Below, piece by piece: positions 1 through 6,326 of a stretch of DNA of 6,326 nt. Source of the stretch: Deltaproteobacteria bacterium. GTDB taxonomy: Bacteria > JAUYMQ01. The translations under genes and the position numbers were made by a program. The stretch spans positions 1-6,326 of the forward strand of contig JAUYMQ010000098.1 of NCBI GenBank assembly GCA_030698575.1, given 5' to 3'. The notes beneath the pieces are model-generated. The model saw only the letters and a program-made list of their open reading frames with translations. It had not been told where the DNA came from and searched no databases. Every line of letters starts with the position of its first letter. The first letter of the stretch is position 1.

Positions 1-282
1 GGTGGTGAGTTCACCGCCGGCTATTGCTGGGACGGCAAGGAGATCATGGGGACAACGGACGTGAAGACGACCGTCGCCACCGACGCAACGGGGCGGCGTC
101 AGACCCGCGCCGAGATCTCCTTCGTCGATGAGCATCTGCGCCGCCACGAGATAACGGCGAAAGTCCTCGACGTGTGCGAGGTCGATCTGGGAAAGACCAA
201 CTGCAACGACGGCTTCGCCGAGTTTCACATGGGAGAGCGCACGGGCTACGGGATCGTGGAGCTGGGCAGCCAGCACCCCTAG
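1..282 (+). CDS. 3' end of an unidentified protein, possibly DUF7064/CrtC-like (partial)
   Basis: An open frame enters from the left edge and ends at TAG (280-282), giving 93 C-terminal residues that start GGEFTAGYCWDGKE. The true start lies outside the window; the internal Met at base 46 is probably not the start, because coding-like sequence continues upstream of it. The fragment looks beta-rich, with alternating polar and hydrophobic strands, and ends in a GERTGYGIVE segment. That ending resembles the C-terminus of the DUF7064 / hydroxyneurosporene-synthase (CrtC)-like lipocalin proteins that often sit near phosphotransferase and acyl-CoA genes, but this recall is weak. No signal or membrane segment is visible in the part seen. 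The gene converges with the minus-strand operon, with only 11 bases between the two stop codons. Coding status is fairly safe; function is not. Confidence 0.6.
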   Translation, partial: GGEFTAGYCWDGKEIMGTTDVKTTVATDATGRRQTRAEISFVDEHLRRHEITAKVLDVCEVDLGKTNCNDGFAEFHMGERTGYGIVELGSQHP

Positions 283-293
283 GGGAACTCCGG

Positions 294-794
294 TCACCAT
301 ACGATCTCGCCTACTTGCACCCATTCGCGATCCCGATTGATCTGCCGGCCGACGTAGCCATGGGCCTCCCGGCGGCAGTGCGCGAGTGCGCTCCCGTCAG
401 GGAGATCGGCGCCGACGATCCGTCCCAGAAGCGACGCGAGCATCGCCCGCCGCTCGCGGACGGAAGCCCGAAGTTCCTCTATCGCGTCGGGCGCCTCATT
501 GCCCGGCGCGGTCGCCACGGCCGACTCGATCTCCCGCAGGATATCCGCTAGGGGCCCCGTCGCCTCACCGGCGGCGCGCGCCGCCGCGATACGCTCGAGC
601 ACGCCCGAAAGATCGTCATGCTCCTCCTTCAGGAATCCTCCCACCCGATCCCAGCGCGCCATGCAGTGCTGAAGCAGGAAGAGCACTGACGTGAGGCGCT
701 CGCGGCCGCGGTCACTCGCCAGATCGGGAAGGATCTCCTCCATCAGCGTGCGCTGGATGCCGCTCAGGATGTCGCTCACGTCCGGTCGCATCAT
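294..794 (-). CDS. Small helical protein downstream of a phosphotransferase; LvaB/DUF6285-like candidate
   Basis: This 166-residue protein starts at ATG 794-792 inside the stop of the phosphotransferase gene (ATGA, 4-base overlap), a typical translational-coupling junction. An in-frame TAA directly upstream (797-795) rules out a longer product. A GGGAG element at 803-799 lies 4 bases before the first ATG and 7 before a second ATG (791-789), so Met2 is an equally good start. The N-terminus (MRPDVSDILSGIQRTLMEE followed by ILPDL) and the next amphipathic helices recall the DUF6285 family that commonly follows APH-type phosphotransferases. LvaB of Pseudomonas putida, needed for activity of the kinase LvaA, is the characterised case of such a partner. 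The middle is Ala/Glu/Arg-rich and probably helical or coiled; the C-terminus (about 125-166) has a distinct HCRREAHGYVGRQ stretch. No catalytic motif, signal peptide or membrane helix is seen. Family assignment is inference; at 166 aa it is longer than I would expect for LvaB. Confidence 0.8.
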   Translation of the reverse strand: MMRPDVSDILSGIQRTLMEEILPDLASDRGRERLTSVLFLLQHCMARWDRVGGFLKEEHDDLSGVLERIAAARAAGEATGPLADILREIESAVATAPGNEAPDAIEELRASVRERRAMLASLLGRIVGADLPDGSALAHCRREAHGYVGRQINRDREWVQVGEIVW

Positions 795-1816
795 TTATCT
801 CCCTGGATGCCGATCTGCGCGGCGATGTCCTCGCACAGGCGGGGAATCATGAACCCGATTAGCGCCAGCACGGGCTCCGCGCCGTCGCCGTCGAGAAAGG
901 CGCGCACCGCGCCCTGCGCAATCACGGCCATCTTCACGTTCCCGAGGACCTGGTAGAAGAACACGCGCGCCCGGTCGACGGGAACGGCAGCGCGGGCTTC
1001 GTAGAGGCGGTAGAACGCCTCTTCCTCCATCAATCCCCCCACCAGCCCCCCGCCGCGCCAGAACTTCATGCTGGCCCATCCGACGTCCTCCATCGGATCG
1101 CCGAGATGGGTCAGCTCCCAGTCGAGCATCGCGGTGATGTTTCCCGCTTCGTCATGAAGGTAGTTGCCCGTGCGAAAGTCTCCGTGCACCAGCGTCACCC
1201 GATCGCTTTCGGGCGCGTTCTTCTCGAGCCAGCCGAAAGCGGCATCGATGATCGGCTCGGCTTCCGGCCGCCGGCGGTTGTAGACCTCCCGCCACCTCCC
1301 GATCTGGGCCATCGCGGCGCCCCTTCCCGGGCCGGGCGCTTCGAGAAAGTCCAGGCCGCGCTCCTTCCAGTCGAGGTTGTGAATTTCGGCGAGAATGTCC
1401 ACGAAGTGAGCCGACAGACGCTCGCGGAACGCGGCGTCGATGCCCGGCGCAAAGGCGGGCGGCGAGGCTTCGCCGGCCATCAACTCCATGATCAGCGACG
1501 GGCGCTCGAGCCACTTGCCCTCGGCGTCCAGCCAGTACATGCGGGGGATCGGGATGGGAAGCCCCTCGAGGGCGCGAAGGGTGCGGAATTCAAAGGAGCG
1601 ATCCGTGGTCAGGCCGGCCTCGAGGAGGCTGCTGCGCGGATCCCGCCGCAGCACGCACGCCCGGTTTCGCTGCTCGCCGTTCTCGGTCCAGGCGGCCTCG
1701 AAGGACCAGGTCTCGCGCGAGGCGCCCCCCGACATTTGCACGAGGTTCCGCACCTCAGGCTTCGCGCCGGGAATCTGCTGCGCCAGGAAGGCGCAAAGGC
1801 TCGCTTCGAGCGACAT
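791..1816 (-). CDS. Phosphotransferase, APH / ACAD10-N-terminal-like kinase family
   Basis: A 341-residue cytoplasmic kinase-fold protein. Near the N-terminus, GGASRETW (30-37) is the nucleotide-binding loop and VLRRDP (55-60) sits where the ATP-phosphate-contacting strand is expected. LVHGDFRTGN (209-218) is the catalytic loop with Asp213 as base and Asn218 as metal ligand. MLDWELTHLGDP (230-241) supplies metal-binding Asp232. These are the family hallmarks, and the length is normal. Members of this COG3173-like group include LvaA, which phosphorylates 4-hydroxyacyl-CoAs, and the N-terminal domain of ACAD10/11; true aminoglycoside resistance is unlikely. The gene starts 4 bases after the molybdoenzyme stop. 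A GAGG overlapping that stop lies only 2 bases from ATG, so translation is probably coupled. There is no signal peptide, so it acts in the cytoplasm. From context it probably phosphorylates a hydroxylated product, either a hydroxyacyl-CoA or a tertiary alcohol such as a 25-hydroxysteroid. The substrate is inference. Confidence 0.93.
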   Translation of the reverse strand: MSLEASLCAFLAQQIPGAKPEVRNLVQMSGGASRETWSFEAAWTENGEQRNRACVLRRDPRSSLLEAGLTTDRSFEFRTLRALEGLPIPIPRMYWLDAEGKWLERPSLIMELMAGEASPPAFAPGIDAAFRERLSAHFVDILAEIHNLDWKERGLDFLEAPGPGRGAAMAQIGRWREVYNRRRPEAEPIIDAAFGWLEKNAPESDRVTLVHGDFRTGNYLHDEAGNITAMLDWELTHLGDPMEDVGWASMKFWRGGGLVGGLMEEEAFYRLYEARAAVPVDRARVFFYQVLGNVKMAVIAQGAVRAFLDGDGAEPVLALIGFMIPRLCEDIAAQIGIQGDK

Positions 1817-1820
1817 GGCC

Positions 1821-4694
1821 TCAGATCTTCTCGACTTCCACGCGTGTGCCGCGGTCGTTCTGTCCCGGCTGCATCGCGATGATCATCGGCTGGAGGTGGA
1901 AGTAGCCGCCCGCGAGCTGGATCGGGTTGATCGGGCTCGGGATGATCGCCTGATCCGAGCGCCGATTGCTGAACTGCTGCGGCTCCCAGGCGTGGTAGAC
2001 GACCACCTGACCAGGCCTCACGGCCGGGAATATTTTCGCCTCGACTTCGAAGTCGCCGAGATCGTTCCGCACCCGCACCCGGTCGCCATCGGAGATTCCC
2101 CGGGTCCTGGCATCCTCGACGCTCATGCACACAACGGGCCCGCCCCGCTGCAACCTCAGCATCAACGGGTCGTCGCGCCAGCTCGAGTGAATCGACCAGC
2201 GCGTGTGTCCGCCGGTCATCTGGAGCGGATGGTCGCCGCCGATCGCGGGATTGTCCTTGTGGGTGGGGAGCTGCTCGCCCAGTTCCATGTAGAGATCCTG
2301 GTCGATGTAGAACTGCATCCGTCGCGTGAGAGTCGGCCAGGGAATCTTCTTCTCGGTGTGCCAGGTGTTCGCCGTGATGGTCTCGTCCGGCTTCACGTCC
2401 GTGGCGGTCCCGATGTTGACGGCCGACTGCCCGACTGCGGTGAAGCGTGCGTATCCCTTCTCCTTCAGCTCCTTCCAGGAGGTCCCCTCCAGGTTCTTCG
2501 ACAGCTTGACCAGCTCGTCGAGCGTCTTCTCGACGTCGCCTTCCGTGTAGCGCCCGCCGTAGGTGAACTGCTCGTACACTTTATCCAGCCTTCTTTCCTT
2601 CCCGCCCCGATCGCGGAAGGTCTTAATTCCCTTCTCCACTGCCCTTTGCTGGATCTTCTTGGTGAGCAAGCAATAGAACACCCATTCGTTTTTAGATTCG
2701 CCGAGCGGATCGATCGCCTTCGTGGTCACATGGGCATAGGGCATGATCGGCGTGGCCCAGGTGACATCGTCCTTTTCATACCAAGCTGCGCTGGGCAGAA
2801 CATAGTCGCTGTACATCGCCGTCGCGCTCATGCGCCAGTCGACCGTCACGAAGAGATCAAGCTTCGGAAGCATCGTCTTGATGATTTCGGGATAGGAACG
2901 AACCCGCCTCAGGATGTTTCCGCCAGCTTCGAAAAAGATCTTCGGTTCTTGCTTGGGCGCGAACTGCCACCCCTTCGCCACCGCCTCGTCCACGTATTCG
3001 CTCACGTCGCGCTTGAGGTAAGGATCCCATTCCCGGCTCCGGCCGCTCACGCCGCGAAGTCCTCCGAAGAAGTAATAGAAGAGGACGGAATTCACGAAGG
3101 GACCTTCTTCGAAAATTTTCCGGGTATTTTCGTAGGTCACCATCTCGTCGGAGTAGCCCTGAAGCTTCATCTTGGCGACTCCCGGCGCGAACCCGGCCAT
3201 GACCGCGAGCGAGCCGAGAGCCAGAGGGAGCGACGCGGGCGCGAGGCTGGCGATCTCCGGGGCGTCGATGCTCATCCACGGGAAGGCGTTGTACCCGCTC
3301 CCCTTCTTCCCGTACTGGCCGCAGAGCGCGAGCACGAGGATCTGCACCCGCTCCATCTCCAGCCCGTGGTAGAACTTCGAAAAATTGGACTGCGTGATGA
3401 TCGTGGCGGCCCGCGCCTTCGCGATGTCGTGGGCGAGGCGCCGGATGACGGCGGCCGGCGTGCCGGTGATCTTCGCCGCGGCCTCGGGCGCGTAGCCGGC
3501 GACCTTCTCCCGCAGCAGTGTGAGAACAGGCGTTACGAGAACCTTCCCTGAAACCGTTTCCGCCTCGTACTCTCCCGCCAGCGCCGGATCGCGCCCCTCG
3601 AGCTTGAGGCTCCGCTTCGGCGCCTCCGCGATCTTTTTTTCCACGAGATCATGGAAGTAGAAAACGTCGTCCTTCCCCCCCCGCTTCATGTCGCTCTCGC
3701 GGAGAAACAGGCCGTTGTCGCGGCGCACGAGAAGCGACAGATCGGTTTGCTCCTTGATGAAGGCGTCGTTCTGGAGGTTCTCCTCGAGGATGACGTGAGC
3801 AATCGAAAGTCCGAGGGCGGCGTCCGTGCCCACGTTGACCGGCACCCACAGGTCCGCGTGCACGGCGGAGGGATTGTAGTCGGGCGTGATGGTCACAACG
3901 CGAGCGCCGTTGTATCGCGCCTCGTTGAAGAAGTGCGCGTTGGGAATCTGCGTCGAGACGGGGTTGCCGCCCCAGATGAGGATCAGATCGGAATAGAAGC
4001 AGTCGTCGCCCGAGCTGGCGAAGACGATCTTGCCGCAGGTGGCCGCGGCGCCCGGATGGTGATCGCCGATCTCGGCGTTCATATCGAGGATCGGCGTATC
4101 GAGAACGTTTCCCGCGCGCAGCACGCCGAGCGCGGCACAGCCGTTGGTAAGCCCCTCGCCGAGATCCCAGTAAATTCCGCCCGACCCCTCGGCGGTCATC
4201 ACCGCGATCATCCGATCGGCGATGTCCGTCAGCGCCTCGTCCCACGTGACGCGCGTCCACTTGCCGCCGCCCCTGGGCCCCATGCGCTTGAGCGGATAGA
4301 GAACGCGCGTGGGGTCGTACATCCGGTGACTGAAGCAGGCGCCCTTCTGGCAGCCGCGGGGGTTGAAGTCGGGGACGTCGGCGTTGGTTTGCGGATAGTC
4401 GGCCGCCTGTTCCTCGCGCAGGACAAGCCCTTCCTTCACGAAGATGTTCCAGCTGCAGGCGCGCTGGTACCAGCAATTAACGTGGTGGGTTCCCTTTGCG
4501 ACGCTGTCCCAGGTCCAGGCCTTGCGGTAGATATCCTGGAACCCCTCGTAGCGAGGGTGGGGTGGAAGCGCGGCCCCCTCTCCGAGTGAGGTCGCACCAG
4601 CGGAGAAGGGGATGCGGAGCTGGCTCAGGCAGAGCGCGAGGGTGCCGGCGCCGGCGCCCTGAAGGAACTGCCGACGCGTCATTCCGAAGGCCAT
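1821..4694 (-). CDS. Tat-exported molybdopterin oxidoreductase, type II DMSO-reductase family alpha subunit (EbdA/S25dA-like), copy 1
   Basis: A complete 957-residue catalytic subunit, close to the length of ethylbenzene and steroid C25 dehydrogenase alpha subunits. A twin-arginine signal, MTRRQFLQGAG (5-15), is followed by a hydrophobic stretch ending near residue 34, so the mature protein should be periplasmic. The [4Fe-4S] FS0 ligands are His70, Cys74, Cys80 and Cys115; the 34 residues between the last two cysteines equal NarG. VTWDEAL (149-155) opens the bis-MGD domain. Asp211 (in EIGD) aligns without gaps to the downstream TxG of NarG and is the candidate Mo ligand. LFVTVDWRMSATAMYSDYVL (614-633) and WYEKDD (638-643) match the NarG core. 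Residues about 820-957 form the molydopterin dinucleotide-binding domain (HTRWSIHSS, RGGPVV). A GAGGA ribosome site 6 bases before ATG 4694 supports that start over Met5. No beta or gamma subunit gene follows; the next gene is a kinase. The family is firm. The hydroxylase role is inferred from closest motif resemblance (NPRGCQKGA); nitrate or other oxyanion reduction is a less likely alternative. Confidence 0.95.
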   Translation of the reverse strand: MAFGMTRRQFLQGAGAGTLALCLSQLRIPFSAGATSLGEGAALPPHPRYEGFQDIYRKAWTWDSVAKGTHHVNCWYQRACSWNIFVKEGLVLREEQAADYPQTNADVPDFNPRGCQKGACFSHRMYDPTRVLYPLKRMGPRGGGKWTRVTWDEALTDIADRMIAVMTAEGSGGIYWDLGEGLTNGCAALGVLRAGNVLDTPILDMNAEIGDHHPGAAATCGKIVFASSGDDCFYSDLILIWGGNPVSTQIPNAHFFNEARYNGARVVTITPDYNPSAVHADLWVPVNVGTDAALGLSIAHVILEENLQNDAFIKEQTDLSLLVRRDNGLFLRESDMKRGGKDDVFYFHDLVEKKIAEAPKRSLKLEGRDPALAGEYEAETVSGKVLVTPVLTLLREKVAGYAPEAAAKITGTPAAVIRRLAHDIAKARAATIITQSNFSKFYHGLEMERVQILVLALCGQYGKKGSGYNAFPWMSIDAPEIASLAPASLPLALGSLAVMAGFAPGVAKMKLQGYSDEMVTYENTRKIFEEGPFVNSVLFYYFFGGLRGVSGRSREWDPYLKRDVSEYVDEAVAKGWQFAPKQEPKIFFEAGGNILRRVRSYPEIIKTMLPKLDLFVTVDWRMSATAMYSDYVLPSAAWYEKDDVTWATPIMPYAHVTTKAIDPLGESKNEWVFYCLLTKKIQQRAVEKGIKTFRDRGGKERRLDKVYEQFTYGGRYTEGDVEKTLDELVKLSKNLEGTSWKELKEKGYARFTAVGQSAVNIGTATDVKPDETITANTWHTEKKIPWPTLTRRMQFYIDQDLYMELGEQLPTHKDNPAIGGDHPLQMTGGHTRWSIHSSWRDDPLMLRLQRGGPVVCMSVEDARTRGISDGDRVRVRNDLGDFEVEAKIFPAVRPGQVVVYHAWEPQQFSNRRSDQAIIPSPINPIQLAGGYFHLQPMIIAMQPGQNDRGTRVEVEKI

Positions 4695-4949: not shown

Positions 4950-4979
4950 CAAGCTGAAGCCTAGGTCACATTCAGCTTG
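4950..4979. promoter_or_regulatory. Operator candidate B: perfect 9-bp inverted repeat overlapping the -35 of copy 2
   Basis: CAAGCTGAA (4950-4958) and TTCAGCTTG (4971-4979) are perfect inverted arms separated by 12 bases. Arm centres are 21 bp apart, two helical turns, as expected for a dimeric regulator reading one DNA face. The right arm overlaps the TTGACA at 4977-4982. The inner part (4955-4974) is the second copy of the 20-base element found at 4737-4756, including the same TGAA-N12-TTCA geometry. The lack of a U-run after it argues against a terminator. Confidence 0.5.
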
Positions 4980-5004
4980 ACATCGCCCGGCGGAAAGATT
5001 TAAC
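4977..5004 (+). promoter_or_regulatory. Predicted sigma-70 promoter of molybdoenzyme copy 2
   Basis: TTGACA (4977-4982) is a perfect -35 hexamer, followed by a 16-base spacer and TTTAAC (4999-5004), a four-of-six -10. The predicted start is near 5011, giving an unusually long leader of about 188 bases. Both divergent promoters share the octamer GCTTGACA. The right arm of an inverted repeat (4950-4979) overlaps the -35, so regulator binding there should affect polymerase access. Prediction by eye only. Confidence 0.5.
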
Positions 5005-5013
5005 GTTTCAGCA

Positions 5014-5039
5014 GAAACATGAGCTTCATTTCATGTTTC
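5014..5039. repeat. Perfect 9-bp inverted repeat at the predicted 5' end of the copy-2 transcript
   Basis: GAAACATGA (5014-5022) and TCATGTTTC (5031-5039) are perfect complements around an 8-base spacer. It begins about 3 bases after the predicted start at 5011, so it could act as an operator covering +1 or as a stem-loop at the mRNA 5' end. The left arm can also pair with GTTTC at 5005-5009, and the right arm with ACATGAAA at 5063-5070, so the three pairings compete. Confidence 0.5.
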
Positions 5040-5192: not shown

Positions 5193-5198
5193 TGCGTC

Positions 5199-6326
5199 AT
5201 GTCATTCGCGGACATCACTCGCCGGGACTTTCTAAAGGCCGGCGGATCTCTCGTCCTCGCCCTCAGCGTTCTTGATCTTCGCACCGTCGCCGGCGGGGCG
5301 GCGATGGCCGCGCCCGTCGCTCCCGCCTACAAGTCAATGGAGGATCTCTATCGCGAACGCTGGCGCTGGGATCGCGTGACACGCGGCACCCACTGCGTGG
5401 ACTGCTACCCGGGCAACTGCGCCTGGAACGTGTACGTGAAGGACGGCGTTGTCATTCGTGAGGAGCAGGCCGCGGAATACCCGGTCATCGAAGCGGGCGT
5501 GCCCGACATGAATCCCCGGGGGTGCCAGAAGGGCGCTTCCTTCAGCAATGTAATGTACGGCGCCGAGCGCATCCGTTATCCCCTGAAGCGCGTCGGCCCG
5601 CGCGGCTCGGGAAAGTGGAAGCGCGTGACGTGGGACGAGGCGCTCGGCGAGATCGCGGAGGCCATGGTTGATGCTGTGGAGACCACCGGGCCCGAGTCGG
5701 TCGTCCTCGAGATGGGTCCCGGCAACCTGGGAATCCTCCAGGCGTCGGGAGTTTCCCGGTTCTTCGTGAACCTGGGCGCCACGCAGCTCGACGTCGACGG
5801 CCTGATCGGCGACTTCAACGCCGGCAACTACATCACCTTCGGCAAGTTCCACCATGTTTCCAGCGTGGACGACAGGTTCCACGCCGATCTCCTGCTCATC
5901 TGGCACATGAACCCCGTCTACACCCGGATCCCCTCCTACCACTTCATCTCGGAAGCCCGTTACAAGGGGGCCGAGGTGATCACGATCGCGCCGGACTTCT
6001 CCCCCTCGGCCGTTCACGCCGACCTGTATATGCCCGTCCAGCCGGGCACCGATGCCGCGCTCGCGCTCGGGGCATGCCAGGTTATTCTCGCCGAGGATCT
6101 GCTCGACAAGGGCTTCGTCCGGGAGCAAACGGATCTTTCATTGCTGGTCCGGAAGGACACGGGGAAGTACCTGCGCGAGAGCGACATGAAGGAAGGCGGC
6201 CGCGAGGATCAGCTCTACTGGCTCGACGAGAAGACGGGGAAGGTGGTGCCCGCGCCGCTCGGCACGCTCGACGCCGGCGCCGTCGTTCCGGCGCTCTCGG
6301 GCACGGCCACGGCGACACTCGCCGGC
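5199..6326 (+). CDS. Tat-exported molybdopterin oxidoreductase, type II DMSO-reductase family alpha subunit (EbdA/S25dA-like), copy 2, 5' part
   Basis: The frame is open from ATG 5199 to the window edge (376 residues); roughly 60% of the protein is missing, judged from its 957-aa paralogue. GGAGGT at 5187-5192, 6 bases upstream, supports the start. ITRRDFLKAGG (6-16) is a near-perfect Tat motif, followed by a hydrophobic stretch and a possible AMA cleavage site at 35-37. FS0 ligands are His65, Cys69, Cys74 and Cys109 (HCVDCYPGNC, then NPRGCQKGA). VTWDEAL (143-149) starts the bis-MGD domain. Asp205 (LIGDF) is the candidate Mo ligand. PSAVHADLYMPV and GTDAALALG (269-291) match both copy 1 and NarG. 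Identity to copy 1 is about 55-60% by eye over the iron-sulfur region and lower after it, so this is an old paralogue rather than a recent duplication. The likely role is water-dependent C-H hydroxylation in the periplasm, with beta and gamma subunits perhaps encoded just past the window. Exact substrate is unknown. Confidence 0.95.
   Translation, partial: MSFADITRRDFLKAGGSLVLALSVLDLRTVAGGAAMAAPVAPAYKSMEDLYRERWRWDRVTRGTHCVDCYPGNCAWNVYVKDGVVIREEQAAEYPVIEAGVPDMNPRGCQKGASFSNVMYGAERIRYPLKRVGPRGSGKWKRVTWDEALGEIAEAMVDAVETTGPESVVLEMGPGNLGILQASGVSRFFVNLGATQLDVDGLIGDFNAGNYITFGKFHHVSSVDDRFHADLLLIWHMNPVYTRIPSYHFISEARYKGAEVITIAPDFSPSAVHADLYMPVQPGTDAALALGACQVILAEDLLDKGFVREQTDLSLLVRKDTGKYLRESDMKEGGREDQLYWLDEKTGKVVPAPLGTLDAGAVVPALSGTATATLAG

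Follow-up and report, generated by a model that had tools for sequence, protein, structure and literature searches.

A molybdenum hydroxylase, a kinase with a small helper and a phosphosteroid-lyase-like protein: a candidate oxygen-independent dehydration cascade in a deltaproteobacterium

The stretch of DNA analyzed here (the window; 6,326 nucleotides, spanning the whole of C102, one of the 653 contigs of a deltaproteobacterial genome) combines genes for a molybdenum (Mo) hydroxylase alpha subunit of the type II DMSO-reductase family, an APH-fold small-molecule kinase, a small helical helper protein and a protein with the unnamed domain pair DUF7065/DUF7064. Taken together, these genes probably code for an ATP-driven, O2-independent dehydration cascade of hydroxylation, phosphorylation and elimination. 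In this scheme, the exported Mo enzyme would use water to hydroxylate a hydrophobic alkyl or isoprenoid chain at an unactivated C-H bond, the carbon of which is probably tertiary or otherwise substituted; a cytoplasmic complex of the APH-fold kinase and the helper would phosphorylate the new hydroxyl; and the DUF7065/DUF7064 protein, predicted to be a lipocalin-like two-domain protein with the fold of 25-phosphosteroid lyase (25-PSL), would eliminate the phosphate to yield an alkene, the allylic carbon of which would next be open to oxidation. In this fashion, the conversion of an inert carbon chain to an alkene would consume one ATP.

The known precedent is the cascade of S25DH, 25-HSK and 25-PSL (PMC8449060, PMC11061730), and the gene set as a whole would be a variant on a cascade of this type. 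Like the window, the S25DH1/25-HSK/25-PSL system of Sterolibacterium denitrificans combines a type II DMSO-reductase-family hydroxylase, an APH-fold kinase and a phosphate lyase with the AttH/DUF7064 fold (PMC8449060; PDB 9fzn, 9g4c, 9g2i). However, no lyase candidate was found near 25-HSK in that organism (PMC8449060), whereas the alpha, kinase, helper and lyase-like genes of the window all lie within 4.7 kb; further differences are the clade of the kinase, the extra helper and the distant lyase subfamily. The second comparable system is the lva operon (LvaA, LvaB and LvaC) along with ACAD10 and ACAD11, in which an APH-fold kinase likewise has a small protein partner, and the alcohol is phosphorylated before the phosphate is lost (PMC6692424, PMC12440821). 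In contrast to these, a putative DUF7064 lyase would replace the acyl-CoA dehydrogenase for elimination in the window, and the Mo hydroxylase would supply the alcohol.

This interpretation provides a probable function for DUF7065/DUF7064, and it suggests that phosphorylation followed by elimination, as found in the anaerobic breakdown of cholesterol, serves as a general route for activating inert carbon chains without O2. More tentatively, we entertain the broader proposition that DUF7065/DUF7064 constitutes a large phosphate-lyase family. Joined by dedicated APH kinases, and in one branch by the helper, its members would make up an ATP-dependent dehydratase system that is widespread and acts on unactivated alcohols far beyond sterols; in the window, the supplier of the alcohol would be the neighboring Mo hydroxylase, acting on a hydrocarbon other than a steroid.

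Organization of the locus

The features of the window are as follows:

1 to 282, plus strand: C-terminal half of a DUF7064 gene, 25-phosphosteroid-lyase-like (PF23212, 44.4 bits), cut by the contig end
294 to 794, minus strand: helper, 166 aa, all-helical, with no Pfam or NCBIfam family match and with kinase-linked relatives
791 to 1816, minus strand: APH-fold small-molecule kinase, 341 aa (PF01636, 105 bits), with the APH catalytic motifs HGDFRTGN and LDWE
1821 to 4694, minus strand: Mo hydroxylase alpha subunit, 957 aa (TIGR03479, 925 bits; NF042978 EbdA, 693 bits; best PDB match 2ivf, EBDH, 652 bits)
4950-4958/4971-4979 and 5014-5022/5031-5039, no strand: two perfect 9-bp inverted repeats, operator-like, in the intergenic region between the divergent Mo alphas
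5196 to 6326, plus strand: another type II Mo alpha, a divergent paralogue truncated at the other contig end (TIGR03479, 463 bits across 374 positions)

The alpha stop is separated from the kinase ATG by a 4-base gap (GGCC), and the kinase and helper genes overlap by 4 bases (ATGA), with a ribosome-binding site of the helper (AGGGAG) that is rated good. The ORF coordinates and these junction bases bear out a preliminary description of three minus-strand genes with junctions of +4 and -4 bases, and the gene classes given in it are equally confirmed: the alpha belongs to the type II DMSO-reductase family, the kinase has the APH fold, and the third product is a helical protein of 166 aa. What it overlooked, in describing a three-gene operon, is a fourth gene, the truncated plus-strand DUF7065/DUF7064 ORF at 1-282, which is arranged tail to tail with the operon, 11 bases separating its end from the helper stop. 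The hydroxylate-then-phosphorylate module proposed at that stage is right in outline, given the EBDH-like alpha and the co-occurrence of kinase and helper; with the lyase-family gene beside the operon it becomes one of hydroxylation, phosphorylation and elimination, shorn of the LvaB label for the helper (see below). The analysis establishes the identities of the genes, the fold of the lyase family and the conserved pairing of the kinase with helper and with lyase; a single pathway shared by all four proteins, the order of its steps and the type of substrate are inferred. The alpha carries a Tat export signal (RRQFLQ), whereas the kinase and the lyase are devoid of export signals; hence, the intermediate would need to cross the membrane.

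The second Mo alpha is a possible partner, its membership in the cassette being a conjecture. The inverted repeats between the two alphas, at 4950-5039 (CAAGCTGAA/TTCAGCTTG and GAAACATGA/TCATGTTTC), resemble operators.

The molybdenum alpha subunit and its neighborhoods

As had been supposed, the window alpha falls on the hydroxylase side of its family, being much closer to ethylbenzene dehydrogenase (EBDH) than to the perchlorate and nitrate reductases. Among solved structures, EBDH (EbdA, 2ivf) at 652 bits is ahead of the perchlorate reductase PcrA (483 bits) and NarG (263 bits), and among family profiles EbdA scores 693 bits versus 296 for NarG. Both Asp223 and Lys450 of EBDH, the Mo ligand and a catalytic residue, respectively, are kept, and PcrA has a His for the latter. 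Neither the bit scores nor the Lys450 position sides with the oxyanion reductases, and on these grounds a reading of the alpha as one of them was dropped; the alpha tree, being rooted on PcrA, is itself no test of that grouping. In this tree, the window alpha occupies a clade separate from EBDH, and the second alpha goes loosely with the EBDH-side alphas. The window alpha further differs from EBDH in the replacement of His192 by Glu (Thr, Gly, Ser or Pro in its relatives) and in having no adjoining beta or gamma subunit genes. His192 is not known to be required in S25DHs. Elsewhere in the genome, contig C330 carries a complete EBDH-like alpha-beta-gamma operon (L030, 2075-6778) in which EBDH His192 and Asp485 are kept; the presence of such a set makes a hydrocarbon substrate plausible.

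Relatives of the locus were gathered via alpha matches in a scan of named genomes, which recovered 18 related alpha loci (55-65% identity) from metagenome-assembled proteobacterial and Nitrospinota genomes. Within the flanks available, some of them short, neither kinase nor lyase was present near 13 of these 18, and among the loci surveyed the exact order alpha-kinase-helper occurs in the window only. Nevertheless, a Mo alpha is accompanied by a lyase and/or a kinase within 4 kb in L058, L185, L102, L093, L150, L152, L043, L044, L051 and L056; L102 combines lyase, kinase and Mo alpha, and L058 and L185 share with the window the full complement of alpha, kinase, helper and lyase. The three-gene order of the preliminary description was not seen outside this contig among these loci; kinase and helper do go together in many genomes, and near Mo alphas in some.

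These data bear on the possibility that the neighbors are fortuitous, with the alpha being a reductase or an orphan and the unit comprising kinase, helper and lyase only. The uniqueness of the gene order and the scarcity of kinases near most of the related alphas agree with it, as does the TIGR03479 score of 925 bits, which lies below the curated cut-off of 984.75 (a cut-off that the EBDH-like alpha on C330, at 971 bits, also falls under). Set against it are the junction of only 4 bases between alpha and kinase, the EBDH-like rather than reductase-like character of the alpha and the Mo alphas near a lyase or kinase in about ten other loci; we hold this possibility to be the most improbable of those considered here.

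A phytoene-desaturase/amine-oxidase-like FAD protein is repeatedly encoded beside these Mo alphas (L043, 12886-14391; L046, 12661-14136; L048, 1891-3477; L185, 5974-7281). 'Phytoene dehydrogenases' constituted one band in the purification of 25-HSK (PMC8449060).

The kinase and its helper

The nearest solved structures to the window kinase are 3dxp, ACAD11 (8v3v) and 9fsg, the last of which is probably 25-HSK, judging from its 379 aa against the 43.3 kDa of that enzyme and from the context of its deposition. In a tree with solved relatives, the window kinase groups with the kinases of L185, L187 and L098, apart from the 9fsg/3ats, ACAD11/3dxp and DUF6285-linked clades. This position speaks against the two affiliations contemplated earlier, the 25-hydroxysteroid kinase type (represented by 9fsg, taken as 25-HSK) and the ACAD10/11 type, for which an acyl-CoA dehydrogenase partner is also wanting in the window.

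The identification of the helper with LvaB/DUF6285 was not established: the helper has no PF19802 match, a DUF6285 profile is likewise silent on the window, and three hhalign profile comparisons with DUF6285 returned probabilities of 24, 51 and 14%, with consistent alignment confined to the N-terminal helix. The AF2 model of the helper is poor (pLDDT 61.5, pTM 0.34). Its family is rare, being found in 2 of 369 gammaproteobacterial genomes and in 10 of the 282 genomes of another phylum sample; its members lie beside or are fused to the same kinase type, a trait common to DUF6285. In the latter sample, the helper adjoins a kinase in 17 of 19 matches, and it is fused to the kinase N-terminus in L095, L096 and L186, with the lyase gene following. 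The order kinase-helper-lyase recurs in L185 and L187, where successive genes overlap by ATGA, and L098 has the same order. The adjacency, the fusions and the overlapping runs are strong evidence for the helper being a physical partner of the kinase, and the helper defines a new kinase-partner family. True DUF6285 proteins are always kinase-linked in our sample and, like the helper, may have a kinase-partner role.

Kinship with LvaA and ACAD10/11 could alternatively mean that hydroxyacyl-CoAs destined for beta-oxidation are the substrates of the kinase and its helper, the Mo gene having a separate function within the same operon. Although the kinase matches the ACAD11 kinase domain (29%), and the kinase LvaA is likewise bound by a small protein, LvaB (PMC6692424), this appears unlikely: the window lacks an acyl-CoA dehydrogenase, the helper is not DUF6285 by Pfam, the adjoining and recurrent gene is of the lyase family, and the genome has two separate kinase+DUF6285+acyl-CoA dehydrogenase sets on contigs C278 and C621. 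The kinase-DUF6285 pairs of these sets (L035, 8101-10745; L034, 13443-16673) are genuine and LvaABC/ACAD11-like.

The DUF7064 family, 25-phosphosteroid lyase and kinase linkage

The dehydration cascade favored here would have its eliminating step in the DUF7065/DUF7064 protein, a domain pair of which there is no mention in the literature searched. Profile A1, built for the DUF7064 family, matches the window ORF (E 6e-20) as its sole match in the genome, and the missing half of the gene was found nowhere else in it. The same profile matches 25-PSL (9fzn) with an E-value of 7.6e-27. Fold comparison was made on a complete relative, L098, standing in for the truncated window protein. Its AF2 model (pLDDT 89.4, pTM 0.87) retrieves, as top Foldseek matches, the 25-PSL entries 9g4c, 9fzn and 9g2i (E 6.6e-14 to 1.1e-12, TMq 0.72-0.74), which were released by the PDB in January 2026, followed by AttH (2ich) and then kievitone hydratase. 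By VIA-align, the model scores Z 26 with 25-PSL, 27.6 with 2ich and 24.7 with 7a0q, i.e., it has the AttH/CrtC/kievitone hydratase-like lipocalin fold. The phosphate-lyase reading draws on the greater sequence similarity to 25-PSL, together with the kinase linkage. In 2021, the 25-PSL enzyme itself had yet to be identified (PMC8449060), and a 2024 paper termed it putative (PMC11061730).

An RD[HRK]SWG motif is common to the DUF7064 homologues of related genomes, including L094 and most of the family; its position in the window lyase gene lies before the contig start. The product-bound structure 9g4c has Asn in place of the motif Asp, which points to this Asp as the catalytic residue. The closest relative of the window protein is that of L094 (45%), itself 21% identical to 9fzn, and the two form a branch separate from 9fzn.

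The likeness to 25-PSL raises the question of sterol side-chain degradation proper, in which the genes would provide the S25DH, 25-HSK and 25-PSL reactions for breaking down cholesterol or phytosterols. Three enzyme classes are indeed shared with the known cascade (PMC8449060, PMC11061730) and the genome has several type II alphas, but the window kinase lies outside the 9fsg/3ats clade and the window lyase is not a 25-PSL orthologue. Moreover, the PF00890 (FAD_binding_2) matches of the 91.6% complete genome include SdhA, NadB, GlpB and a CrtI-like protein and no 3-ketosteroid dehydrogenase, though this is a weak argument. With the kinase outside both the 9fsg and ACAD11 clades and this dehydrogenase absent from those matches, we give such a role, with a sterol as the substrate, a low likelihood.

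The linkage of lyase and kinase is conserved well beyond the window. Of the 97 distinct DUF7064 genes collected, 28 have an APH kinase within 1.5 kb, a frequency with a binomial p of about 1e-14 even if a background of 5% is assumed; most of these kinases are on the same strand. When the spacing is relaxed slightly, the kinase-linked cases are spread over about 20 genomes. L175 has a 25-PSL orthologue (69%) with a kinase and a further DUF7064 gene as its neighbors. A high-scoring DUF7064 subfamily without a kinase (L085, L087) possibly has a different function; judged by sequence starts alone, its conserved neighborhood may be a TRAP-type transporter. Finally, clusters of about 20 kb (L243-L246; G286 contig C430 and G222 contig C91) hold three kinase-helper pairs with lyase-family genes, which suggests several parallel substrates.
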